Translations under genes and position numbers: made by a program
Shown here: positions 7,390 to 19,567 of the stretch, piece by piece
How positions within the stretch are numbered: the stretch's first letter is position 1
Layout: every line of letters begins with the position of its first letter
Assembly (NCBI RefSeq): GCF_029433105.1
Contig: NZ_JARNTW010000022.1
Location: 1 to 64,000 of the forward strand
DNA length: 64,000 nt
Reading direction: 5' to 3'
Origin: Runella sp. MFBS21
GTDB lineage: Bacteria > Bacteroidota > Bacteroidia > Cytophagales > Spirosomataceae
Notes under the pieces: model-generated
What the model saw: only the letters and a program-made list of their open reading frames with translations
What the model was told of the DNA's origin: nothing
The model's database searches: none

Positions 7390-8919
7390 CTACTTCTTCA
7401 CTTCTCCGATATGATATTCTTGAATCAAAGGTGAACTTTCGGGCGTAAGTGTAAATGACACCCATAGCGTGGTCTTTTCTCCTTCGATAAGATAACGCCC
7501 TCTCAGTTGATTTTCGGGCACTATTTCTTTGACATTCAAAATTTTTCCAGCTTTAGCAAAGAGGGTATTAGCTTCTTTTTTGAGGGCTTCAAGTGAGTAG
7601 TCCGCAAAGAAGTTTTCGGCGAAAAGACCGCTCGTTTCGGCATTTTTCCAATCTGGCAAGATTTGCGTAAGGTCTTTTTGCCGTTGTTTAAGAATATCAG
7701 AAGCGGGTAATTGGCGAGGTTGTAACTGTGCACTGATGATAAGTGTATCCAAAACCCTGAGATTAATAGGTACAGTAGGGGCGTAAGTAACATTGGCAAA
7801 ACAAACTACACCGATGCCATATTCGGGCAAAAAGCGCCAATTGCTCCCAAAGCCGGGTAAGCCACCACTATGGCCTATATACACACGGTTGTCGCAGTCG
7901 CGCATCCAGTTGAGTCCATAGCAATAGGCAGATACTGTACCACATGTACGACCGCTTGGGTATTTGTATTGGGGTGCGAAACTGCTGATGTTCCAAGGTT
8001 GGTGCATTTCTCGAATCGAACTGCGTTTGAGAGGGCCATTGTCAGTGTCGTCTTTGGGAGGCCATGCCGCCAAGTGCAGCGCCATGTATTTGCTAAAATC
8101 TTCGATTGACGTAATCAAACCTCCCATGGCTCCCCAAGCCCCATCATGAAGCAGGGCCTCTTCGGTCCATTGGCCGTCGCGCCAACGATAGCCGTGGGCG
8201 AGTTTATCGGCTGGAATGTCGGTGTATTCCCACTTAGTATGCGTCATACCGAGGGGTTTGAAAATATTCTCGTTGATAAATTGCTGATAAGTTTTACCCG
8301 ACACTTGTTGAATGATATATCCCAACAGCGTAATTCCAAGATTGCTGTATTCGTACGTAATACCCGGTGTATTGGAAAAGGCAATTTTGCTTTGAAGGAG
8401 TTTAAGTAGTTCCTCGTTCGTATCCGCGAGTTGACGGTCGCCCCAAGGGTTGTCTTCAGGAAATCCCGCTGCGTGGGTCAAAAGGTGCCGAATCGTAATT
8501 GCAGGAGCATCGGCAGTGAGGAGCTTTATGGAAGCAAGCTCTGGGATATACTTACTAGCGGGGTCGTCGAGATTGAGTTTGCCGGCATCACGGAGCTGTA
8601 AAATCGCCATGGTAGTAAAGCTCTTGCTCATTGACGCAATCCTGAAAAGTGACTGAGTGGAAGCGGGGGTTTTCTGAGCGAGATTGGTATAGCCGAGGCT
8701 ATTGGTATGAACCAGCTTTCCATCTACTACGATTCCGTAGGTAAATCCTGGGAAATGATTTTTTTCGGCGTATTCTTTATAGATTTTATCAATGGTCGGA
8801 AAAACAGCTTCGATTTTCTTCATCCTATCCGGGTCGGTAAAGACGGGCGGGCGGTAGGATTGACTATGTGCAATAGAGATAATTGAAACGAAGAAGACAC
8901 ATTGGAAAAAGTTTTTCAT
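7390..8919 (-). CDS. Serine hydrolase, class-C beta-lactamase/esterase family
   Basis: 509 residues. Signal peptide 1-19 (cut near AHS-Q). The penicillin-binding-type catalytic motifs are all present: SMSK (96-99, nucleophile Ser96), YSN (191-193) and HSG (350-352). There is also a C-terminal beta-rich extension of about 100 residues (400-509). The protein is therefore exported and hydrolyses an ester, amide or D-amino-acid peptide bond; genuine beta-lactamase activity is not implied. It begins 37 bp after the reverse transcriptase gene on the same strand, with no terminator between them, but looks functionally unrelated to it. Confidence 0.88.
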   Translation of the reverse strand: MKNFFQCVFFVSIISIAHSQSYRPPVFTDPDRMKKIEAVFPTIDKIYKEYAEKNHFPGFTYGIVVDGKLVHTNSLGYTNLAQKTPASTQSLFRIASMSKSFTTMAILQLRDAGKLNLDDPASKYIPELASIKLLTADAPAITIRHLLTHAAGFPEDNPWGDRQLADTNEELLKLLQSKIAFSNTPGITYEYSNLGITLLGYIIQQVSGKTYQQFINENIFKPLGMTHTKWEYTDIPADKLAHGYRWRDGQWTEEALLHDGAWGAMGGLITSIEDFSKYMALHLAAWPPKDDTDNGPLKRSSIREMHQPWNISSFAPQYKYPSGRTCGTVSAYCYGLNWMRDCDNRVYIGHSGGLPGFGSNWRFLPEYGIGVVCFANVTYAPTVPINLRVLDTLIISAQLQPRQLPASDILKQRQKDLTQILPDWKNAETSGLFAENFFADYSLEALKKEANTLFAKAGKILNVKEIVPENQLRGRYLIEGEKTTLWVSFTLTPESSPLIQEYHIGEVKK

Positions 8920-8956: not shown

Positions 8957-10444
8957 CTAAACCACCTCCCACCATGCTTTATCGTCGTTATTTGAATCTT
9001 GAAAAGGGAGCGATGTGGGAGATATATCTTTAATAGAGGGAGATGTTTTTTCTTTTTTACCAAAAATGGTATCTAACTTTGTTTTGAATTTTGCACCTTG
9101 TTCGGGTTTTATCATACTCACAAAGTTGACATACCCCCTCATAGAAGCTTCTAGGTTTTTACTATTGTTCCAAGTTTTACCTTCTACGCCTGATTGCTCA
9201 ATGTGATGAATAAGGGCACGGAATTTACGTAGCATTTGTCGATCGATACTCACTTTCTCATTTACAATAATGCCTGTTACTCGTTGTTGAGTACCTTTAC
9301 GCATGACTGCTATTTTTTCAGGATGAACGACAAAACCTTCATCTTCAACAATTTTATGGACACTCCAAAGTAATTGTCCTACGAGTTTTGAACCTTCGCT
9401 AGTAGCTGAGAAAGAGAGGTCGTCGGCATATCGACTATAATTGAATCCTAATTTTTGGCCTAATCCTTGAAAACGCAGGTCGAGCCGGTGACAGATAAGG
9501 TTGGTAATAGCGGGGCTGCTGGGTGCTCCTTGCGGAAGCTTTCGGATACTTTTTGCAGTATAATAAATTTGGCTATCAATCTTTACAATATCTACTTCAG
9601 GCTCAGTACAGATTAACGCCAAAATCGTAGCTATCCGTTCGGAATAGCCTAATTTATGATATAAACCTTTGACACGAGGATAGGTGATAGTAGGAAAAAA
9701 ATCTTTTAAATCGATATTAACTACTACTTCTTGACCCGTGTGGTTTTGTGCATTGGAAAGAATGGATTTTTTAGGTACAAACCCATGAGCCGCCTCTGAG
9801 GAGGGTATTTTATAGAGTATATTTTCCAATATCCAGTATTGTGCCTTTTTCAATAAAGGCATAGGAGCTGATATTAATCGTTTACCGCCAGATTTTTTTG
9901 GAAGATAAAAGCGCTTATAATGAGAAATTTTAGAGACAGTTCTATTGAAAGCTAAAAACCGAAGATGGCCTAGAGAAACTCCCATAGCCTGAGCTAATTG
10001 AAAAGGGTTTTCAAAATGTGGCAGCCCTAAGGTATTAAGTTGCTGGAGATTGCTTTGTGTTTGATTCAAGCCTCCAGAAACACCTTCTCCTAAGTATCCA
10101 ATAGAGTATTGTTGTTGAATTTTCCACGCCTCAGCTTTTTGTTGGCGACGCTGCTCATTTTTAGCTTTTGTTTCCTCTCTTCGTTTTTTTGATGCTTCTA
10201 GACGCGACTTACGCATTTCGGCCAGCATGGCCTGTTTATTAGCATAGCGTTGCTGTTTTTGAGAGAGTTCATTTAATTCTCGATAAAGCTCTCCCTGTTT
10301 TGCAATAAGTTGTTCAGAAAGTTGGGGTTGGGCTGCATCAGTTTGCCAGAATCCGAGCCGCTTCATCTCCGAAAAAATGAATTCGTCGCGTGAGGTTTCG
10401 CGAATGCGGTCGTAGATTTGTTGGCGGGTGAGGCGTTCTGACAT
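8957..10444 (-). CDS. Retron-type reverse transcriptase with long N-terminal extension
   Basis: 495 residues, longer than the usual 300-400 for retron RTs. Residues 1-140 are an extension with a highly charged coiled coil at about 45-112 (K/E/Q/R-rich). The RT domain follows: retron-like HGFVPKKS (220-227), catalytic block NIDLKDFFPTI (243-253, Asp245), LPQGAPSSPAITN (303-315), the active-site YADD (339-342) and HPEK (374-377). VTGIIVN (389-395) holds the VTG triplet that retron RTs use to recognise their own msr. The C-terminal tail after about 465 is acidic and low in complexity. The predicted msr-msd RNA lies immediately upstream, as in retrons; it would serve as primer and template for msDNA. 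Group II intron RT and DGR RT are unlikely: no maturase domain, no intron and no variable repeat are visible. Confidence 0.92.
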   Translation of the reverse strand: MSERLTRQQIYDRIRETSRDEFIFSEMKRLGFWQTDAAQPQLSEQLIAKQGELYRELNELSQKQQRYANKQAMLAEMRKSRLEASKKRREETKAKNEQRRQQKAEAWKIQQQYSIGYLGEGVSGGLNQTQSNLQQLNTLGLPHFENPFQLAQAMGVSLGHLRFLAFNRTVSKISHYKRFYLPKKSGGKRLISAPMPLLKKAQYWILENILYKIPSSEAAHGFVPKKSILSNAQNHTGQEVVVNIDLKDFFPTITYPRVKGLYHKLGYSERIATILALICTEPEVDIVKIDSQIYYTAKSIRKLPQGAPSSPAITNLICHRLDLRFQGLGQKLGFNYSRYADDLSFSATSEGSKLVGQLLWSVHKIVEDEGFVVHPEKIAVMRKGTQQRVTGIIVNEKVSIDRQMLRKFRALIHHIEQSGVEGKTWNNSKNLEASMRGYVNFVSMIKPEQGAKFKTKLDTIFGKKEKTSPSIKDISPTSLPFQDSNNDDKAWWEVV

Positions 10445-10463
10445 AGTGTTTATTCAAATAAAA

Positions 10464-10493
10464 CCCCTTTCTTCACTAAGACAAAGAAAGGGG
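10464..10493 (-). terminator. Terminator-like hairpin between msd and the RT gene
   Basis: CCCCTTTCTT (10464-10473) and AAGAAAGGGG (10484-10493) form a perfect 10-bp stem with a 10-nt loop; on the minus strand it is followed by TTTTATTTG. It begins one base after the a2 repeat and lies 20 bp before the RT start codon. It could define the 3' end of the retron RNA and let only part of the transcription continue into RT, which would fit the need for excess RNA. Confidence 0.65.
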
Positions 10494-10494
10494 A

Positions 10495-10727
10495 GCAAAT
10501 TCAAGAAATTTTCTTCGATCATACTCAGGACTAAATCAATCAACTCCAAGAGGGCGCACCCCCATAGGGGCTTTTGCTTCAAGGAAGCCATACTGTGAAA
10601 GCCCCTATGGGGGTGTTGCCCTCACAGTAAAGATTGCATTTAGTGATGCATGTAAAGTCATATTTCACGAACGACGAAACATCGTTCTTTCCTTTCGGAA
10701 TGCAAGATTTTGAATTTCTTGATTTGC
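10495..10727 (-). ncRNA. Predicted retron msr-msd RNA
   Basis: On the minus strand a1 (10727-10713, GCAAATCAAGAAATT) pairs with a2 (10510-10495, AATTTCTTGAATTTGC) over 15 bp with one bulged A, bracketing about 233 nt. Within it, 5' to 3', lie msr-like hairpins: TTCC-GAAA-GGAA (10700-10689), GAACGA/TCGTTC (10687-10669) and a TGCAT/ATGCA stem (10650-10635). Then comes a long msd-like stem: 10552-10574 with 10598-10621, an uninterrupted 18 bp (CACCCCCATAGGGGCTTT and its complement) plus 4 bp beyond a small bulge. Its apical loop contains a second GCTTC/GAAGC hairpin. The usual branching guanosine in an AGC context is not obvious; the first G after a1 is in CTTGCA (minus strand). Position and architecture match retron RNAs; exact ends are predicted. 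Confidence 0.82.
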
Positions 10728-10732
10728 TTGTG

Positions 10733-10762
10733 CAAATTAAAATGTTGATTTGATTTAGCAAA
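10733..10762 (-). promoter_or_regulatory. Predicted promoter for the retron RNA
   Basis: On the minus strand, TTTG (10762-10759), an 18-nt spacer and TTAATTTG (10740-10733, 7 of 8 matches to TAnnTTTG). A start 5-6 nt downstream would be at about 10727, the first base of a1. It lies after the TPR gene stop (10788), so the RNA and RT could be expressed independently of the upstream genes. Confidence 0.6.
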
Positions 10763-10787
10763 CCTTTTCTACAGATTTTTCTAGTCT

Positions 10788-11759
10788 TTATGCGAAAAGG
10801 TTCTGTAAGTCTTTATTGGTCTTGATACCCCGCAAATAATTCCAAGGAGTGGCGCTCATGTGGCCTTTAAACTTTTCAAACTCTTTTTTTGCCAGTGCCT
10901 TTTCTTTCATCAAGTACAGTAAGAAACAAAATTTGTTTTGAATGGGATAGATGATTTCTTTGGGTTCTTGAGTAGGAGAAAATTCATTGTATAATTTGAA
11001 AAAATCAGCCCTGAAATCTTCATTTTTAAGGAAATTATCCAATTTTTCGCGCCCGTTTTCTTCTCGTAAGTACCCCAACGCATCTTCTATAAAACACTCT
11101 AGCATTAAGCTTTTAAAGAAAGGATTTGGATTGTTGGTAATGATTTGATCCACAAACTCGTACATTTCTTGTTTTGACCCTAGCCATTTTTCTTTTAGCG
11201 CATTGAGGGTAGCCGAATGCGCATAGAAATGATTAGGGTCTAGCTGAATCGCACTTTGGAAATGACTTAAAACAGCTTCTTTGTCACTTAATCCCATATA
11301 CATCGGAATCGTACGGGCGTGAGTTTCAGCTTCATAAGGATTTAATTCGAGAGAGGTTTGAAAGTGTTCTTCTGCTTTATATAAATAGTTTAAAAAACCT
11401 TCCCATTGCTCTTCAGTGACATCTTCCGCCCATTTAGCGGTGCGGCTTTCCCAAGCTAAATGTACACAGTTTGCTCCTCTAAATAAATGAGATATGTACG
11501 AATCAGGTTGCGCAGATACCCACTCTAATATTTTAGCACTGTACTGATTCTCAAAGGCTAAGTTTGCTACCAATAAACTTTTTTCCCAAGATTTGCTTTT
11601 CTGATATTGCTCAGTAAGATTGTCAAATTCCCCACTTAATAACAATGATGCTGCTCGGTTGACGGAAGGATTCCCAAAAGAGGGGTCAGGATCACGAGAA
11701 GGATGGGGTTGTATGTTTGAATCTTTAGATTTGCCGAAGCCGAAAAGGGTTTTGAACAT
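10788..11759 (-). CDS. TPR-like helical repeat protein of the retron locus
   Basis: 323 residues, no signal peptide or membrane helix. The N-terminal 30 residues are polar (SKDSNIQPHPSRDPD). Residues about 126-190 contain two TPR-like units: the first holds YLYKAEEHFQTSLELNPYEA, the second AVLSHFQSAIQLDPNHFYAH. The flanking parts are also helical. It starts 18 bp after the SWIM gene and precedes the RNA-containing gap, so it belongs to the operon by position. TPR arrays are protein-binding scaffolds; a role in bridging the RT/msDNA complex to an effector is inference. No catalytic motif is visible. Confidence 0.78.
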   Translation of the reverse strand: MFKTLFGFGKSKDSNIQPHPSRDPDPSFGNPSVNRAASLLLSGEFDNLTEQYQKSKSWEKSLLVANLAFENQYSAKILEWVSAQPDSYISHLFRGANCVHLAWESRTAKWAEDVTEEQWEGFLNYLYKAEEHFQTSLELNPYEAETHARTIPMYMGLSDKEAVLSHFQSAIQLDPNHFYAHSATLNALKEKWLGSKQEMYEFVDQIITNNPNPFFKSLMLECFIEDALGYLREENGREKLDNFLKNEDFRADFFKLYNEFSPTQEPKEIIYPIQNKFCFLLYLMKEKALAKKEFEKFKGHMSATPWNYLRGIKTNKDLQNLFA

Positions 11760-11777
11760 CTTAAAATAAGCTTAGAA

Positions 11778-13427
11778 TTATGAGGGTGTTTTTTTTTCTA
11801 TATATGCGATTCGAGTTGCTAAAATATGCTCGCAGGGACCTTTGTAGAGTTTGTTGCTGATATAAAAGTCACAATCACAGTGAGCTTGTACGAGTCGTTC
11901 GTCATTGTCGATGAAGAGTGATGGTTTAAAAGTACGCCCTCCCGATTTAATCGTTGCCGACATTGATAATCCATGAGAAGAAGACTGAGCGTTTATGTGA
12001 ATATTATTATTTTTTACTAGTAATCTTGCCGCCTCTTCGCGTGGATTGTCGAATCGTAACTTGTGAATGGGTAAAGGGTCTCGCGAAAGCTCCCGAATCC
12101 TGTATACCCCGAGGTTTAAATCAAAGATGGTTTTGCCTGCTTGGGTAAATGTTCCTAAAGCGCCTAATACAGTTTTGGTATCGATATTAAGTCTTTTAGC
12201 TAAATTATCAGGTTTTTCGTACCAGTTTTCACGCAAAGCATTGTAAATAGTCTGAGAGAGAAAACCATCGACTTCTGCTCGCGGAGCCATTAAGTCAAAA
12301 TTGCCTACTCTTGACCAATCGTTGGCTGACCATCCCGAAAGACCCAATGTGAAAGTCATGTCTCCTAAATCAGCTATAAAAAAAGAAGGAAGTCCTGAGC
12401 CGAGTAGGTGTACCGTAAATATTTTAGTGATAGGAATTAATCTTTCTAAAATTAAGAGCCGCCGTCTTCCCCAGACTCTTATAGTTTGAGGGGTTGAGCC
12501 TTTAAATATGGATCTATTGCATACGATTTCTTTATTGAATGGCTCAAAAAGCAATACAATAGGTTCGCCGGGCTTTAAAATAAATTTAATAGACCTTGGT
12601 CCTGTTTTTTCTTTAAATCGCCTCAATAACAAGCAAATATTATAAACATCCATCGGATGTAATTCAAAACTCGTAGTAGGTAGGGTCATGGCTGAACTGA
12701 CCTGTAAAAACCCCCGTACCCAACTATCAGGAACATCAATTTTTACCTCTTTAAATTCGGTTTCGTTCGTAGTTTTGACAGTAAATCCAGTAGGGTCGAT
12801 TTTAAAATCAGTTTCTTTATAGTCTCTTATTTTTTGGAACTCATGATACAGCCCCGACGAATAATCAATGTTAGTAGTGCCACACTGAAATTCGTTAATT
12901 TCTTTGAAAACGTTGTAACTTGACTCAAGTTTTCCGTAAGTAGATTCATCTTGACTGAAACATTCAAAAAATACTTCATCGGGATGTACCGTAATGACGG
13001 GGTCAAGCACCATCCAAGCATCCCGGTCTCTTAGGTAAAGATAGTCAAAATAGCGCCGCTGCGCTCTATAAAAAGGGCTTAGAATTCTGTCTCGTTCCTG
13101 ATTTAGACCTCGCAATTCTTTGCGAATTGCTTCAATGCGTGTTTTGACAGCTTCGACATTATAGGTTTCTAAAAATTCGGCCAAAAATAAGCCTTCTTGC
13201 TGGGCAGCCCATTCTTTATAGGCGGTTTTGTCTTTGGGTTTAAATCTCATATCAGACACCACCACATCATGCAAAGCAGAAATGGCTTCTCGAAACGCTA
13301 TTTTTTTGTTGAGTTTTCCCACAAAATAAGTAGGTTCCCTTAGAGTATCAGGCACAAAAGATACACCTACCGAGTTGGTGTTGCTCACTATTGAGCTGTT
13401 TCCACCATATTTATAACTGAAAAGCAT
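11778..13427 (-). CDS. Winged-helix + SWIM zinc-finger protein (WHSWIM-like)
   Basis: 549 residues. Residues about 1-370 have no recognised family and include a coiled-coil-like stretch near 90-115. Residues about 387-442 look like a winged helix (NLAKRLNIDTKTVLGAL as recognition element). The C-terminus carries a SWIM zinc finger with ligands Cys517, Cys519, Cys532 and His534 (CxC-x12-CxH). SWIM and winged-helix modules bind nucleic acids or proteins. This domain pair is, from memory, the hallmark partner of type XIII retrons; E. coli YehQ is another SWIM protein encoded in a WGR-HEAT neighbourhood. It starts 9 bp after the membrane protein gene. Confidence 0.85.
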   Translation of the reverse strand: MLFSYKYGGNSSIVSNTNSVGVSFVPDTLREPTYFVGKLNKKIAFREAISALHDVVVSDMRFKPKDKTAYKEWAAQQEGLFLAEFLETYNVEAVKTRIEAIRKELRGLNQERDRILSPFYRAQRRYFDYLYLRDRDAWMVLDPVITVHPDEVFFECFSQDESTYGKLESSYNVFKEINEFQCGTTNIDYSSGLYHEFQKIRDYKETDFKIDPTGFTVKTTNETEFKEVKIDVPDSWVRGFLQVSSAMTLPTTSFELHPMDVYNICLLLRRFKEKTGPRSIKFILKPGEPIVLLFEPFNKEIVCNRSIFKGSTPQTIRVWGRRRLLILERLIPITKIFTVHLLGSGLPSFFIADLGDMTFTLGLSGWSANDWSRVGNFDLMAPRAEVDGFLSQTIYNALRENWYEKPDNLAKRLNIDTKTVLGALGTFTQAGKTIFDLNLGVYRIRELSRDPLPIHKLRFDNPREEAARLLVKNNNIHINAQSSSHGLSMSATIKSGGRTFKPSLFIDNDERLVQAHCDCDFYISNKLYKGPCEHILATRIAYIEKKTPS

Positions 13428-13436
13428 ATAAATGTC

Positions 13437-14189
13437 TCATTTAGAATATTTTCTAATATACAATTCAAAGCCCAAACCTAAAAAAAACATGGACAGAAAC
13501 TGACCTACTAAAATTAAGCATGTCGTCATTAGGAAGTTTTCCAAGGCCCATAACATTCGAAATACAAAAAACAAACCACCTAAGTATTTTATGAAAGCAT
13601 ATAGCATGTAAAAAAAACCTCCAACAGTAAGTAAATTAGTAATGAAATTGGCGGGCGTTTTGTCGGAACTTAGTATCTCTACAAAATGTACCGCAAAAGT
13701 CGGAGCCGCTACTAAGAGAATTAGATTGGTAGCAATGATTCCGCAAACGTTTACATTAGTTCCTAGTTTATTGATTAGATTTACTATATCTGTAGGTGGG
13801 GCATCAAAAAAAATAACATCGTGAAATAGATTTGATAAACGACTGTAATCCTGATTGTTGTCTGTAAAAAAATGTAAGAATATTAGAGGAATAATGAACT
13901 TTAAGGATACTAAAAGCAACCTTCTGAAAAGAGGTAGGCCACTCAATGTTGAATCAATTTCTTTTCTCTCCTCTCCCAAATAATAAGCCCCCTCTACTTT
14001 TAATCCCATCCAGTAAGGAATTAAGTTTAGAAAAATGGGCACTTGATTGAAGACTTTGAAATAGAGTGTATAACCCCAGCCCGCCTTAAATCTTATAAAG
14101 TCACAATTGTTGCTTCGGTACAACAAAAACTCAAATAGGCATTTGACTGACAATACTAAGTTGAATAGGATGATAACCCAAAACGCCAT
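13437..14189 (-). CDS. Multi-pass membrane protein of the retron locus
   Basis: 250 residues with five to six predicted transmembrane helices, near 1-20, 42-64, 88-107, 147-171, 180-210 and 214-238. A loop at about 108-145 contains acidic and aromatic residues (FTDNNQDYSRL, VIFFDAPPTD). No family is recognised. It is packed between the SWIM gene (9 bp) and the WGR-propeller gene (6 bp), so it is translated from the same message. Membrane proteins are common effectors in abortive-infection systems, including retrons; calling this the toxin is an inference from context only. Confidence 0.8.
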   Translation of the reverse strand: MAFWVIILFNLVLSVKCLFEFLLYRSNNCDFIRFKAGWGYTLYFKVFNQVPIFLNLIPYWMGLKVEGAYYLGEERKEIDSTLSGLPLFRRLLLVSLKFIIPLIFLHFFTDNNQDYSRLSNLFHDVIFFDAPPTDIVNLINKLGTNVNVCGIIATNLILLVAAPTFAVHFVEILSSDKTPANFITNLLTVGGFFYMLYAFIKYLGGLFFVFRMLWALENFLMTTCLILVGQFLSMFFLGLGFELYIRKYSK

Positions 14190-14195
14190 CTGATG

Positions 14196-15635
14196 CTAGT
14201 TTTGTAGTTTTAGAATATTTCCAAAAACACGGTAAAAGCCTCCCTGTGAAGCTTGCCGTACTTCATCAACTATATATATGGCTCCTTCTTGCCTTAGGTT
14301 TTTAGGGAACTGAACATGCCAATTTTTATTATATCCCTCCGAAATCACTTTTACTCTTAGCTGCCCATTTTCGAGCTGACATTGGAGTTGTACGCCAGTA
14401 TTTGGGTTTTGAGTAGTTTCTAAAACCAATGTATCGTTGATGGTAATAGATGGTGAAAGCTGTGAAGCTGCCACTTTGATGTCTTTGTAAACAGGCACAA
14501 TACCAGATTGTGCATTGAGGATGGCATGTTCGGAGGCATCAATGCATACTAGTGCTCCATCGGTAGTGACTGTATAAAGCTTTTCTTGAAAATACTGCAT
14601 TGATAGAGCCGAACCACAGCCAGTAGCTAATTTCCAAAGACGTTGACCACTCGCGTTGAAACAGTAGATAGAGGAGTAGTTGTCTCCCGCAAAAACATAT
14701 TCGCCGTCTTTTGAAGCAGCGCAAGAATAAACAGTTGCATCGGTTTTATAATCTCTTAAATGTATGCCATTTTTTGAGAAAACTTGTACTAAAGAATGGC
14801 TAGTGGCAACATAGAGGGCATTGTTCTCCATCCAACCAAACAATACCGCTCCGGTGGAATAGTGCTCCCATTCAAATCTACCATCGGGGCCATTAAAGGC
14901 CGTAATTCCGGCGGAGTCTCCGTAAAAAACTTTTCCACGCTCATCACAACGCATCATCCACGCGGCACGGCCGCTTTGCTGTTTGCTCCATTGCTCTTCA
15001 TCTTCGTAGTTGATAATAGTGGCGCGCCCACTAGCATCCGACACCCCAAGCAAGCCATCGTTGATGTCAAGCCAATAAATATCAATTTTTTCGTTAATTT
15101 CATAAGACAGACGAGGCCTTTTACCAGTTAGGTCATACACGTTGCCATCGTCGCATCCCACATAAATCCAGTCACTATCTGCCACAATACACTTTACACT
15201 ATCGGGTAAGCGTTGGTGTAAAGTGAGTTCTCCTTGGTGATTGAGTCTAAAAACATCGCCTTTTTCGTTGCCCACCCAGCAGTTGATATCATCAATGTAT
15301 ATCCCAAATGCCGCCGACTCTGTCTGAAACTTCCACAGGATAGGCAGCTTGTTTTTGATGAGAGAAGGCTTACTTTCAGTGGTTCTGCGGGTGATTGCTC
15401 TTTTTGTACGCACTCCCATTACTGCGGGAGCATATCCTTTTTTGGCTTTTTCTTGAACTTTCTTATTCGCAAATTTGAGGGCTTCTTCGGGGGTGTTGTG
15501 GGTAGCGATTTGGGTTTGGCCTTTATCGCCAATGCGCCCATACCGAATCGTAACGGTTGTGGAATCAATGGTTACTTCATAAAATTTATGTGAAGATCCT
15601 TGGTCTTCCGAGAGCTCTAAATAATGTCTAACCAT
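14196..15635 (-). CDS. WGR domain fused to a beta-propeller (PQQ/WD40-like)
   Basis: 479 residues. Residues 1-80 are a WGR domain with a variant core (RYGRIGDKG, residues 31-39) and the usual C-terminal helix (EEALKFANKKVQEKAKKGY). Residues about 100-400 are six or seven beta-propeller blades with recurring D-x-Y/W-I/V-x-V/A-G patterns (DWIYVGCDDGNVYDL, GEYVFAGDNYSSIYCF, KLYTVTTDGALVCID). A beta-rich tail of about 80 residues closes the protein. WGR domains bind nucleic-acid ends in PARPs and occur in bacterial MolR proteins; propellers are ligand or protein sensors. No enzyme motif is visible. It lies 16 bp after the HEAT gene. Confidence 0.85.
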   Translation of the reverse strand: MVRHYLELSEDQGSSHKFYEVTIDSTTVTIRYGRIGDKGQTQIATHNTPEEALKFANKKVQEKAKKGYAPAVMGVRTKRAITRRTTESKPSLIKNKLPILWKFQTESAAFGIYIDDINCWVGNEKGDVFRLNHQGELTLHQRLPDSVKCIVADSDWIYVGCDDGNVYDLTGKRPRLSYEINEKIDIYWLDINDGLLGVSDASGRATIINYEDEEQWSKQQSGRAAWMMRCDERGKVFYGDSAGITAFNGPDGRFEWEHYSTGAVLFGWMENNALYVATSHSLVQVFSKNGIHLRDYKTDATVYSCAASKDGEYVFAGDNYSSIYCFNASGQRLWKLATGCGSALSMQYFQEKLYTVTTDGALVCIDASEHAILNAQSGIVPVYKDIKVAASQLSPSITINDTLVLETTQNPNTGVQLQCQLENGQLRVKVISEGYNKNWHVQFPKNLRQEGAIYIVDEVRQASQGGFYRVFGNILKLQN

Positions 15636-15651
15636 GACTTAATGTTATATT

Positions 15652-18627
15652 TTAAATTCTATCTTCAAAATCTAGTACCGTTAGAGGGAGAGGTAGGTGC
15701 TCAAATTTAGTTTGTAAATCGCGCATGATGCGAATACATGTGGCTTTGTCTTCAATAGAGGCAGTGGCAGAGATATCTCTGAAAATATCCGAAATTAGAA
15801 TCGCTGCTTCCTCCGATTTGAGTGCTTCTTGATGTAAAAATCGAAACACTCTAGCTTTAGAACTGCGCCCCTTGTTGACTCTCGTAAGTACTGACCTAAA
15901 ATAAAAATTCAAATTTTGAAGTTTAGTAATATCGCCTGCCGCAAAACGTTCTAAATAATTAGTCGCAAAGAGTTGGACACTTGTACTAGGATGTTGGCTC
16001 AATTTGAGTAAGTATTCACTGCCTTGTTCTTCCTCAAAAAAACGGCTAATGAGTTCTTTCCCTAAAGCTTCTATCTCAACTTTTGTAGAATCAGTGATTC
16101 CTATCAATACCTCGGGCGACCAGTCTTCTGCCTCAAATTTTTGACGGAAAAATTGAATCGCAAAAAGCCTGGTATCTTCCCACTTAGAATCTAAGAGTTG
16201 GAGGGCTTCTTCGCGTTCAAATTTTATTCGATTGAGATTTTGCTCGTAATATTGGCAGCACCATCTCCGAAAAACCACTAACTCATGATTGCCCAAATCG
16301 ACGATTTGCTTCATTCTTAGCTGATTTGGATTGACATGTTTTTCTAGCAATAGCGCGCCTAATTCTTGGGCAGGACGATAGTTAGAATGGATCAATCGAA
16401 GAGTAGAAACTAAATTTACTTCGCCAAGATATCGGACTAGTTGAGTACTCAATATCATATAAATATCGTGATGAAGGGCTTCGTCTGATTGTTTACTCAT
16501 CAGTACAGGAACTAGGTAATTGACTAAAAAAGAGCTATAAGCTGGGTCAGCTTGTAGATGTTCTTCTAATTGGATCAATAGCTCGACACCTACCTTACGA
16601 ACGGAAGTATAAGGACTTATTAATAACGAACAAAGAATAACAGCAGAAGGATAAGTATTTTTGAGAATGATAGTTTTGACCACAAAGATTTGAGTGGCTT
16701 CTACTTTGATTGCCAACAAATCAACCAGAATTTGATTGTTTAGTTCGATAAGGGTGTCTTTACAAATTTGTAATAAAATAGAAGTGGCATCTTTAATAAT
16801 ACTGTTGTTTTTGTCGTTTTGCTCTGCTAGTTCAAATAATTCTGCAATAGCTCTCCCTAGCAATAGTTGTTGTTTTGAGATATCAATGGGTGTTTTGATG
16901 AGTATTTTTTTTGCCCAGATTCTAACATCAATGTATGTAGAAAATAATAAGTTTTTAACAAAAATACTTTCTTCAAAATAATTCTCGAGGTCTTTTTCGA
17001 TGATTTTGAATCCTAATTCTCTAGCTTCAGACAAGGGACTTTCGACTAAAGAAAGAACAAGAGAACGATTGGGGTTAATACCTAAATGTTGATTGGCTAG
17101 CCCTAACCCAAACCGAGCTGGTATCAAGTATTCAGAAGCTAGAAATAATCGTATCATTTTTAAGTCAATTCTTTTTCTTATGCTTTCATAATCTGGATGT
17201 TGTGAAAGGTTTTGTAGGGCGAATTGATGGATTTTGTCTACTTTGGCTTGCAGCAATAGCTGAATATAAGCTTGTGGGGTCTTGTCCCATAGGTCGGGAT
17301 ATAGTTCCTCTCGAACTATATTTATTTTTTGAGGAGTAGTATTTTGGGGTTCTCTTGAGGATGTCGAAGTAGCGCTTGGTATAGACAAGGGTTTGTGAGC
17401 AAACAACCCAAAAATGGACTCAAAAACGCGATTTAAAATTCCTCCTGAATCCGTGGAAGGTGACGGTGGTGAGGCTGGTGTACTTGGTGAAGGCTGATAT
17501 CGATTCCAGTTCTGTTGCTGATTTATGGTTTCTACCTGTGTATTTACCCACACTTTGCCCGTGAAAGAGAGTCGATTTCCACCGCCATACAAAATTAAAT
17601 TCATTAAAACAGCGTCATAATAATCAGGATAGTTTTTACGAAGGGTCTCCCAAATTTGAAGTTTTTTAGAATATTGGCTTATTGTATTTGAATAAGCCGC
17701 TTTATAATCGATTTTTGGGTCGTAGGAAATCAAAATGGAGATAGCAAGCTTGATATATTCTGCTCGTTTTTCCTCGCCAAATTCTTTTAACTGCCGCAGG
17801 GATTTACGAATTAAATAGGCTTTGGTTTTATCTGAATAAGCTACACTACTTGTCTTTTTTTGCAATTCGGCTTTTACTCGATAAATTTCTTGATAGCCAT
17901 GCGTTTTGGTCACACGTGGACTTTTATACATAGCGACCGAACGCTCAAATCTGTATGAAAGCAATCCCAATATTTCAAAATCATCTCTTAATTCAGCAAT
18001 TTTTAAAATATGACGCACCGCTCGGAAATAACCGCTTTCTAAAGGTATTTTTTGTAAAATAGAAACTATGATTTTTTTTAATGATTTGTCTTCAACAGAT
18101 AATAGATACAAAGTTTCTAAAAAATCATAATCTGTATGCTTTTTACCGAATAGTTTTTCTTCCAATAAATTACTCAAATCTGTGTAAGAGGTTAATAAAT
18201 TTCTTACATCTTCTGGCAGCTGCTGAATATAATAGTTGAGATGTTCTTCGCGCTCTTTCCCTTCCACTAATTGCAATAATCCTGCTCCAGCAATACGGTT
18301 TATTTTTGTAGAAGCTTTTGGATGATGAAAATAAGTTTTAAGGGGAGCGGAAGCTGCTTTTTCATCACAACGTCCGAGTGTCCATAGAGATGAATAAAGT
18401 TGCATTTCGTCGCCTTTGTCCAATAATCTCAAAACAAAAGGGACCGCTTTTTTGAGGCGCAACTCACCTGCTCTCCAAATGACACGCGAAGGTTTCCATT
18501 GCGTTTTGAATGAATTCTGATTTTCAATAAATCCTTTTAAACGCTTCAAAACAGCTGCTTCAAGAGGATTGTCGGAATAGGTATTATAGGGTAAGTCGGG
18601 AAGCTGTAGCAATAGAAATTGACTCAA
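15652..18627 (-). CDS. HEAT/ARM-repeat protein of the retron locus (MolR-like body)
   Basis: 991 residues if translation starts at the TTG at 18627; no ATG exists in frame until about residue 74, so the start is uncertain. Almost the whole length is helical repeat, with HEAT-like units such as ELRLKKAVPFVLRLLD followed by SSLWTLGRCD. A Ser/Pro/Thr-rich linker at about 380-430 divides two superhelical halves. It corresponds to the ARM component of type XIII retrons and to the HEAT body of MolR-like proteins. The preceding WGR gene overlaps it by 44 bp in another frame, and its own frame stays open further upstream, which raises the question of a split WGR-HEAT fusion. Confidence 0.82.
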   Translation of the reverse strand: MSQFLLLQLPDLPYNTYSDNPLEAAVLKRLKGFIENQNSFKTQWKPSRVIWRAGELRLKKAVPFVLRLLDKGDEMQLYSSLWTLGRCDEKAASAPLKTYFHHPKASTKINRIAGAGLLQLVEGKEREEHLNYYIQQLPEDVRNLLTSYTDLSNLLEEKLFGKKHTDYDFLETLYLLSVEDKSLKKIIVSILQKIPLESGYFRAVRHILKIAELRDDFEILGLLSYRFERSVAMYKSPRVTKTHGYQEIYRVKAELQKKTSSVAYSDKTKAYLIRKSLRQLKEFGEEKRAEYIKLAISILISYDPKIDYKAAYSNTISQYSKKLQIWETLRKNYPDYYDAVLMNLILYGGGNRLSFTGKVWVNTQVETINQQQNWNRYQPSPSTPASPPSPSTDSGGILNRVFESIFGLFAHKPLSIPSATSTSSREPQNTTPQKINIVREELYPDLWDKTPQAYIQLLLQAKVDKIHQFALQNLSQHPDYESIRKRIDLKMIRLFLASEYLIPARFGLGLANQHLGINPNRSLVLSLVESPLSEARELGFKIIEKDLENYFEESIFVKNLLFSTYIDVRIWAKKILIKTPIDISKQQLLLGRAIAELFELAEQNDKNNSIIKDATSILLQICKDTLIELNNQILVDLLAIKVEATQIFVVKTIILKNTYPSAVILCSLLISPYTSVRKVGVELLIQLEEHLQADPAYSSFLVNYLVPVLMSKQSDEALHHDIYMILSTQLVRYLGEVNLVSTLRLIHSNYRPAQELGALLLEKHVNPNQLRMKQIVDLGNHELVVFRRWCCQYYEQNLNRIKFEREEALQLLDSKWEDTRLFAIQFFRQKFEAEDWSPEVLIGITDSTKVEIEALGKELISRFFEEEQGSEYLLKLSQHPSTSVQLFATNYLERFAAGDITKLQNLNFYFRSVLTRVNKGRSSKARVFRFLHQEALKSEEAAILISDIFRDISATASIEDKATCIRIMRDLQTKFEHLPLPLTVLDFEDRI

Positions 18628-18880
18628 ATTGGGATAACTCTTGCTGAGTTTGGTAACCTTTACGTTTTTTTTCTGATTCCAGAGATAAAAAAACTTGCTC
18701 TGCTGAATTCAAACTTATAGGTGTATCGGTTTTGGTTCCTTCTTTTAAAGGATTCCCTCGGCGACCAAAACGAAAATTAACCACATATAAACCATTACTG
18801 ATTTCACATAGGTCTATTTCGTAAATTTTGTCGGAATTGCCTTCTTTAAAAAATAGTTTTGATTGTTTGATAAGCTTCAT
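18584..18880 (-). CDS. Stand-alone WGR-domain protein, first gene of the retron operon
   Basis: 98 residues that are nearly all WGR domain: KLFFKEGNSDKIYEIDLCE, then YVVNFRFGRRGNPLKEGTK (FGR at 38-40) and a helix ending KKRKGYQ. Family members with this N-terminus usually continue into a long HEAT-repeat region in the same polypeptide. Here the frame stops shortly after the domain and the HEAT region continues in another frame, with a 44-bp overlap. It may be a genuine separate subunit translated by coupling, or the N-terminal part of a frameshifted fusion. The A8 run about 70 bp before its stop is one possible slip site. Confidence 0.8.
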   Translation of the reverse strand: MKLIKQSKLFFKEGNSDKIYEIDLCEISNGLYVVNFRFGRRGNPLKEGTKTDTPISLNSAEQVFLSLESEKKRKGYQTQQELSQFESISIATASRLTL

Positions 18881-18982: not shown

Positions 18983-19567
18983 ATGCTCTCTTACCTACTT
19001 CAAATCTTTTTCTGGGCGGCTTATGGGGTGTTGCATAGTGTATTGGCAGGTACTAGGGCAAAGCACTTCTTTCAGCAAAAAATGGGAAATAGTTTCCGTT
19101 ATTATCGCCTTATTTACAATGGAATCGCTTTTGTACTACTCATTGCTTTATGGTGGTATCAGCGTAGTCTTCCTACGGACAGGCTTTGGATGGTCGATTT
19201 TCGGGTGGATGTATTGGGTAATATGAGTTTGTTTTTGGGCATGATTGTGGCCTTCTTGGCCCTGAAAGAATATGACATGGGCGAATTTTTGGGGTTGTTA
19301 TTTTGGAAAAAGCAAGCACCCAATCAATTAAAAACCTCAGGGATGCTACATTATGTGAGGCATCCCCTTTATACAGGTACGTTTTTGGTAGTGTGGGGAT
19401 TGTTTTTAAAAGATGCTAGTTTGGCAACCTTGATTATGGCGGCCTGCATCAACATTTATACGCGCATTGGTATCTATTTTGAAGAAAAAAAGCTCATCAG
19501 TAGCTTTGGCGACGACTATCTTGCGTATCGTCGCCGTGTACCGATGTTGTTTCCTAAGATTTTTTAG
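18983..19567 (+). CDS. ICMT/NnrU-like membrane methyltransferase family protein
   Basis: 194 residues with about five transmembrane helices. The C-terminal part carries the isoprenylcysteine/phospholipid methyltransferase signature: VRHPLYTG (about residues 126-133), then an EEKKLISSFGDDYLAYRRRVP segment, which binds S-adenosylmethionine at the membrane surface. The N-terminal FFWAAYGVLHSVLAG resembles NnrU proteins. The methyl acceptor is unknown. It diverges from the retron operon, and its stop overlaps that of the converging sulfatase gene by 4 bp. Confidence 0.82.
   Translation: MLSYLLQIFFWAAYGVLHSVLAGTRAKHFFQQKMGNSFRYYRLIYNGIAFVLLIALWWYQRSLPTDRLWMVDFRVDVLGNMSLFLGMIVAFLALKEYDMGEFLGLLFWKKQAPNQLKTSGMLHYVRHPLYTGTFLVVWGLFLKDASLATLIMAACINIYTRIGIYFEEKKLISSFGDDYLAYRRRVPMLFPKIF

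Follow-up and report, generated by a model that had tools for sequence, protein, structure and literature searches.

We examined a locus in a 64,000-nt stretch of the genome of Runella sp. MFBS21 (contig NZ_JARNTW010000022.1, positions 1 to 64,000; referred to throughout as the window), where seven open reading frames (ORFs) and a structured RNA make up an operon of about 10 kb between positions 8957 and 18880. The original prediction, made from the DNA letters and a list of ORFs, read this operon as a type XIII retron enlarged by four genes: a stand-alone WGR protein, a fusion of WGR with a beta-propeller, a multi-pass membrane protein and a TPR-like protein. The ORF list bears out the seven ORFs, all co-directional on the minus strand. 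The reverse transcriptase (RT) and the SWIM protein are indeed those of a type XIII retron, the fusion protein and the TPR-like protein are recovered as WGR plus propeller and as DUF4034/TPR, and the membrane protein has the segments expected of it (Table 1). A check with defence classifiers had also been proposed, and the answer from PADLOC is type XIII.

Table 1. Features of the retron operon in the window. The outer limits given for the RNA mark the stretch that was aligned and are not mapped ends.
Feature	Position (nt)	Strand	Assignment and evidence
WGR domain ORF, 98 aa	18584..18880	−	N-terminal piece of the broken WGR-HEAT gene; PADLOC WGR_XIII positions 1-84, E 2e-41
HEAT/ARM repeat ORF, 991 aa	15652..18627	−	Remainder of the WGR-HEAT gene; TTG start overlaps the WGR ORF; PADLOC WGR_XIII from position 87, E 3e-279
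WGR-beta-propeller protein, 479 aa	14196..15635	−	Recurrent optional accessory; Pfam WGR E 2e-19; propeller by sequence and model
Multi-pass membrane protein, 250 aa	13437..14189	−	Accessory; five hydrophobic segments in a Kyte-Doolittle scan
SWIM_XIII protein, 549 aa	11778..13427	−	Type XIII core; PADLOC SWIM_XIII E 9e-233
TPR-like protein with DUF4034, 323 aa	10788..11759	−	Accessory, in the slot between SWIM and RNA; Pfam DUF4034 E 7e-11
msr-msd RNA	10473..10746	−	Conserved core 10513-10706
Retron reverse transcriptase, 495 aa	8957..10444	−	PADLOC RT_XIII E 3e-186

RT_XIII is the best of 49 PADLOC matches to the window RT, with 618 bits vs 320 for the next, and the closest match in the PDB is the Ec86 retron RT. 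The protein carries NAxxH (231), YADD (339) and VTG (389), which are motifs of retron RTs. Because the RT, SWIM and WGR-HEAT proteins occur together with an msr-msd RNA, the locus is very probably a type XIII retron, a class reportedly set up by Mestre et al. in 2020. It shares with other members RT_XIII, SWIM_XIII, WGR_XIII/HEAT-ARM_XIII and the RNA before the RT, but differs from them in having three extra genes in two slots and a frame-shifted WGR-HEAT gene. It is thus a genuine, enlarged representative of a type that is itself already known and little studied.

That the extra genes number three rather than four follows from the WGR-HEAT gene. The WGR_XIII profile of PADLOC, 973 positions long, spans both the small WGR ORF and the HEAT ORF, and in Runella zeae the two form a single ORF of 1077 aa (L056/L133; L and G numbers are our own handles for loci and genomes). 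Compared with R. zeae, a few bases are deleted in the window from the linker between WGR and HEAT, which shifts the frame, so there is no stand-alone WGR gene as predicted; the ORF is the front part of a gene that has been split. A WGR domain also stands at the start of the HEAT ORF in 23 of the 24 other HEAT loci listed (first 130 aa, judged by eye), the 24th starting at a contig edge. Since WGR and HEAT already belong to the ordinary type XIII partner, only the other three predicted additions stand, and the ancestral number of genes at the locus is six, one of which is split in the window. The break may be real or an error of the draft, which is an assembly of 72 contigs. Broken core genes are also found in the relatives L057 and L165 (HEAT), L071 (SWIM and RT) and L185 (RT), so decay or draft errors are not rare among type XIII retrons.

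The msr-msd RNA that had been predicted is real. It lies in the gap of 343 nt between the TPR gene and the RT gene, and its structure comprises the a1/a2 stem that closes it, a pair of short msr hairpins and one long msd hairpin. In an alignment of 10 relatives, 33 of the 64 pairs show compensatory change and the covariation score is 0.383 vs 0.172 in shuffled alignments, none of the 500 shuffles scoring as high on any of five measures. Versions of the structure slid along the alignment all score lower, a comparison that favours the real structure because the consensus was derived from the same alignment in which the pairs were counted. With a threshold of E 0.1, a model of the msr part (R1) matches 65 of 79 sources, among them the ten rows on which it was trained, and leaves 14 without a match. 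The window RNA has no match in Rfam, and no branching G of the msr was identified in it.

Within the genus, SWIM_XIII is present in two of the seven Runella genomes in a sample of 390 genomes from the order. In all five of the others the whole operon is missing and the flanking genes (those at 7390-8919 and 18983-19567 in the window) are adjacent, 219 to 825 bases apart between aligned ends vs about 10 kb in the window, which makes the operon the main difference at this place. The R. zeae locus has the same genes, order and flanks, with 92% identity over 18 kb, but its WGR-HEAT gene is intact as one ORF. Apart from that gene, the genes of the window operon are open, and comparison of the two Runella shows purifying selection: counting aligned codons only, the ratio of non-synonymous to synonymous substitution (dN/dS) is 0.05 for the propeller, 0.06 for SWIM, 0.065 for the RT, 0.12 for TPR, 0.18 for HEAT and 0.24 for the membrane gene. 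Among the loci compared, the full gene set occurs only in these two genomes, so the conserved co-occurrence of seven genes that was looked for in relatives reduces to R. zeae, where WGR and HEAT are fused.

To place the window among its relatives we compared 78 loci with a full core of HEAT, SWIM and RT genes, 65 of them ordered HEAT-SWIM-RT and 13 RT-HEAT-SWIM. In 11 of these (the window, L133, L136, L137, L138, L140, L141, L049, L196, L199 and L212) the row of core genes is interrupted by a gene of at least 100 aa on the same strand, and in the other 67 it is not. This gives some substance to the predicted larger subtype, but no locus outside Runella has the full set of the window, and a strict seven-gene subtype is rejected because that set is confined to the window and R. 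zeae. A further 36 loci are partial, HEAT and RT not both being in reach, and many lie at contig ends; they include L041/L150 and L051/L144, pairs from the same contig, and the count leaves L104-L120 outside. Copies dropped from the counts of full loci, RT tree and RT tails are L056, L037, L046, L042, L039, L043 and L054, other close relatives being kept. The SWIM-like loci taken up are 80 of 478 SWIM-like stretches reported. In three cyanobacterial type XIII loci, genes that look NYN-like and RNase III-like by eye lie between SWIM and RT (L196:12263-14245, L199:8508-10168 and L212:12493-14183), and one RNase III-like protein from these cyanobacteria had no match in PADLOC.

The genes that vary among type XIII relatives occupy two slots in the operon, one between HEAT and SWIM and one between SWIM and the RNA. 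They differ between relatives as if interchangeable, for example between L134 and L135, two contigs of metagenome-assembled genomes that are 95.5-96% identical in the propeller, SWIM and RNA, with no other stretch that aligns; both loci end at contig edges, and therefore their HEAT and RT genes cannot be compared. The slots of L134 hold a Fic/DUF4172 gene (PADLOC SoFic, E 6e-45) and a 268-aa gene without a Pfam match, and those of L135 four genes: one of 195 aa, one of 209 aa with two hydrophobic segments, one that is transglutaminase-like and one with DUF4034. This DUF4034 gene sits in the same slot as the TPR gene of the window and is homologous to it (148 bits). In Arcicella (L136), a 248-aa membrane gene stands at the position of the window membrane gene. 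Homology of the two membrane proteins was considered and is unsupported, with an hhalign probability of 1.2% (E 0.04) and blastp E values of 0.015-0.025. At E up to 0.1 the window membrane protein matches no family of PADLOC, Pfam or NCBIfam.

The WGR-propeller gene can be followed across many genomes. In the order sample any match (E up to 0.001) is found in 41 of 390 genomes and a near full-length one in 15, six of which have it beside SWIM and RT, two beside the RT only and seven elsewhere. The seven solo propellers are found in stretches of 18-19 kb that show no type XIII gene. In two split systems (G024 and G040) the propeller adjoins the RT while HEAT-SWIM lies about 63 kb off on the same contig (loci L111 and L112 with L032 and L033). 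These two genomes also show a weak RNA match (E 0.004-0.013), which lies right behind SWIM, and the RT has none in front of it. A long SWIM gene is present in 11 of the 15 propeller genomes vs 29 of the 375 others (Fisher p 3e-9, ignoring kinship, and with the 40 long-SWIM genomes hand-picked at E 1e-133 or better from 65 with any match). The original prediction had pointed out that RT and RNA without the extra genes, and extra genes elsewhere without an RT, would indicate chance adjacency. Part of this pattern is present, as RT and RNA are often seen with none of the extra genes and nearly half of the near full-length propellers are solo, but the adjacency to type XIII genes in the other 8 of 15 genomes is not expected by chance.

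Phylogeny and counts together suggest to us that the propeller is an optional partner that was gained or lost several times. The propeller label, borne by 12 of the 83 rows of the RT tree, takes 6 changes there, and the retron label, borne by 13 rows, takes 3 on the propeller tree of 20 rows, from which the copies L056, L037 and L046 were dropped. We think it likely that the propeller is a working partner of the retron. The structure model of the propeller was built from 9 sequences and has a mean predicted local distance difference test score (pLDDT) of 71.4. The C-terminal part of the protein (residues 404-477) also recurs, often twice, in ORFs of about 620-640 aa elsewhere (L205:7396-9234).

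From these comparisons we favour, with a probability of about 0.6, the reading that the window holds a type XIII retron acquired or kept as one insertion, with accessory cargo in two operon slots. Several results pull against it. Among 41 genomes that have SWIM_XIII loci with no propeller between the core genes (four of the loci being partial, without a recognised RT), 40 have no propeller elsewhere at E up to 1e-20, and consequently the type XIII core does not need one; the sole exception is Trichocoleus, with a propeller 3.4 kb past the RT on the other strand. The membrane gene is found in only one of 76 genomes of the family and two of 12 chosen genomes, and only in the two Runella. The TPR gene has matches in 29 of the 390 order genomes; besides the two Runella copies there are 12 relatives with at least 43 bits and 23-33% identity, none at a type XIII locus, all of them being on other contigs, in genomes without SWIM_XIII or more than 1 Mb off. 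Whether the membrane and TPR genes belong to the retron system we regard as an even bet. Finally, because its WGR-HEAT gene is broken, the window copy of the retron may be inactive.

A propeller acting in trans as a general partner of type XIII retrons is unsupported, given those 40 of 41 genomes and a sample of 345 genomes from the phylum in which the propeller occurs once (the window's own; E up to 1e-40) and SWIM in 11 (E up to 1e-60). An ORF adjoining the Trichocoleus retron reads like a VWA protein.

If the three extra genes were simply passengers with no part in retron action, one would understand why 67 of the 78 full-core loci do without inserted genes, why propeller and DUF4034 genes are also found away from retrons, and why the membrane gene is confined to Runella in the genomes searched. 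The ten neighbours of solo propellers scanned, at four of the seven loci, are mostly housekeeping genes and also fit passengers; the others encode an SNF2 helicase and pentapeptide-repeat, VanW-like and zinc-ribbon proteins, and the idea that solo propellers form part of another defence operon was dropped on this evidence. However, the propeller stands beside type XIII RTs in separate RT clades and at different places in the operon, even where HEAT-SWIM is far off, the genes are under purifying selection between the two Runella, and a DUF4034 gene occupies the same slot in L135, all of which makes passengers rather unlikely. A related possibility is that the extras are an independent defence system nested in the retron operon, which the SoFic-like gene in the L134 slot brings to mind, since SoFic is a separate PADLOC model; we consider this improbable, as the seven solo propeller stretches show no membrane or TPR profile match. 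Decay of the window copy, made inactive by the split WGR-HEAT gene, has on its side the frame shift in the linker, a HEAT dN/dS above those of SWIM, RT and propeller, and the recurrence of broken genes in the four relatives named above. The break falls between two domains, though, the overlapping TTG start of the HEAT ORF could be translated, the other ORFs are open and a sequencing error would give the same picture, so that decay is doubtful, if a little less so than passengers.

The prediction had also raised a hybrid of two conflict-system themes, a retron and a cluster like yeh/MolR of Escherichia coli, which has a MoxR ATPase and a VWA protein. What stands of this is that a SWIM relative does occur beside a WGR protein without an RT. 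A shorter SWIM protein (L117, 446 aa) shares homology with the window SWIM across 141-542 (hhalign 99.3%, E 4e-20), and in L113 (Pfam WGR) and L115 (profile match) such genes adjoin a gene for a WGR protein about 1050 aa long, with no RT labelled there, so that a module of SWIM and WGR is shared beyond retrons. These RT-less clusters resemble the retron in having a homologous SWIM protein and a WGR-bearing partner but differ in their other partner domains, and the L113 SWIM matches SWIM_XIII only from position 100. Against a hybrid, PADLOC and Pfam find no MoxR ATPase or VWA family among the seven window proteins, nor is there a MoxR or VWA gene among the 11 neighbours scanned, a subset of those at such clusters, and the WGR partners scanned carry DUF6493/DUF7824/DUF7825 without a match to the type XIII HEAT profiles. 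A hybrid origin thus seems the least probable of these alternatives, and an insertion with exchangeable cargo remains the reading that we prefer.

The core protein SWIM_XIII has a layout that may bear on how the retron works. The window protein has a predicted PCNA-like clamp at about 34-365 with a helical insert, a winged-helix-like part and a C-terminal SWIM zinc finger, whose residues C517, C519, C532 and H534 are invariant in 45 sequences. In searches with the AlphaFold2 model (built from the 45 sequences), Foldseek returned 446 matches in the PDB at E up to 0.001, the best 50 of which all belong to PCNA, with E values down to 1.5e-9 and target TM values reaching 0.74, and in a viral library mostly PCNA and beta clamps (best E 1e-8). 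The order of strands and helices in the model, as we read it, repeats the clamp pattern twice. The predicted fold thus resembles PCNA sliding clamps in its repeated pattern of strand, helix and strands, but SWIM_XIII has no sequence match to them and carries a long helical insert, a winged-helix-like part and a zinc finger. Other results speak against a clamp: the model is of medium confidence, with a mean pLDDT of 66.9 and 10-residue means of 46-77 over 141-250 and of 79-95 over 251-360 save one block of 63; a Pfam search with the 45 SWIM members gave no PCNA or beta clamp family among the 25 families listed of 33; and a PDB sequence search at E up to 1 found no clamp. We still judge a PCNA-like fold to be probable from the structural matches of the model. 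At 14 loci where the sequence runs on for over 6 kb to each side of SWIM no RT was recognised (two split systems, four with a distant SWIM and eight cyanobacterial), so that SWIM, sometimes with HEAT, can stand without an adjoining RT, which counts against the reading that we favour. SWIM_XIII relatives, mostly cyanobacterial, that lack a recognised RT in the 6 kb to each side are found in L184, L191, L192, L193, L194, L197, L203 and L206, and in plasmid records a SWIM relative occurs in one record only.

The RT in turn ends in a distinctive peptide. In the window its C-terminal tail reads ...SNNDDKAWWEVV, and of 83 type XIII-like RTs 67 have a WW-x-hydrophobic motif among their final 14 residues (window: 8957-8989). 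The WW pair occurs nowhere else in these proteins, as all WW pairs in the 83 RTs also total 67. A low-complexity linker precedes the motif in the 30 tails examined, and the motif is missing in all six cyanobacterial RTs and in ten others. The tail is reminiscent of terminal docking peptides, such as the tip of the single-stranded DNA-binding protein (SSB) or clamp-binding motifs.

Type XIII is probably an anti-phage system. In the mechanism that we would tentatively propose, the RT would copy the RNA into multicopy single-stranded DNA (msDNA), and msDNA, RT, the clamp-shaped SWIM protein and WGR-HEAT would come together in a complex that is seated on DNA or monitors it, WGR and SWIM being DNA-binding kinds of domain. 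The RT may dock through its WW tail, and interference by a phage with the DNA or with the complex would cause release and then a stop of growth. The propeller would probably be a WGR-tethered adaptor, and the slot genes, such as the membrane protein here and Fic in a relative, may be added effectors. In most of the loci compared no other gene separates the core genes, from which it follows that the core must be capable of acting by itself. A guard mechanism in this form is speculative and more likely wrong in some part than right. The same low expectation applies to a general picture of type XIII retrons as clamp-tethered DNA surveillance, in which a PCNA-like SWIM protein might hold the complex, the RT might dock by its WW peptide, one or several msDNAs might set what is sensed, and two slots might serve lineage-specific effectors (membrane, Fic, DUF4034 and transglutaminase-like proteins) next to a WGR-propeller adaptor.

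If true, a clamp-like SWIM core would link retrons to the replication machinery and suggest that phage replication is sensed directly, and a constant core with exchangeable slots would account for the pairing of one sensor with different effectors. The larger interest lies in type XIII as a whole, with its predicted clamp-like core protein, putative docking tail, exchangeable cargo slots and tandem RNA genes. Searches of PubMed Central turned up no account of how type XIII retrons act, which is weak evidence because most subscription papers lie outside it, and nothing linking retrons with SWIM and WGR, WHSWIM or WGR. Matches listed for SWIM, sliding clamp and retron contain, in the excerpts available, nothing on this link; those for retrons with a beta-propeller accessory concern, in such excerpts, other systems only; and searches for several RNAs per retron found nothing concerning retrons, those joining WGR, SWIM, MoxR and VWA only unrelated work. 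PMC12548924, searched by terms, does not mention type XIII, and an excerpt of another paper only names a type XIII retron in its list of Variovorax defence systems.

A single copy of the RNA is present in the window, and several relatives have more in front of one RT. Two copies are found in L040, L044, L045, L048 and L052 and three in L166; L195 has two, with a weak third (E 0.66) that pattern and repeats likewise indicate, L036 has a weak second, and repeats indicate three copies in L177 and two in L182. In some lineages the tandem genes might thus give rise to several msDNAs with different stems, which would let a single RT serve all of them and bears both on recognition and on multiplexed DNA production. 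Tandem arrays lie at L045:3686-4209, L166:4447-5157, L195:5382-6359 and L177:11736-12747. The copies in L045 are 92% identical, and they differ chiefly in the msd stem, where both arms are altered together.

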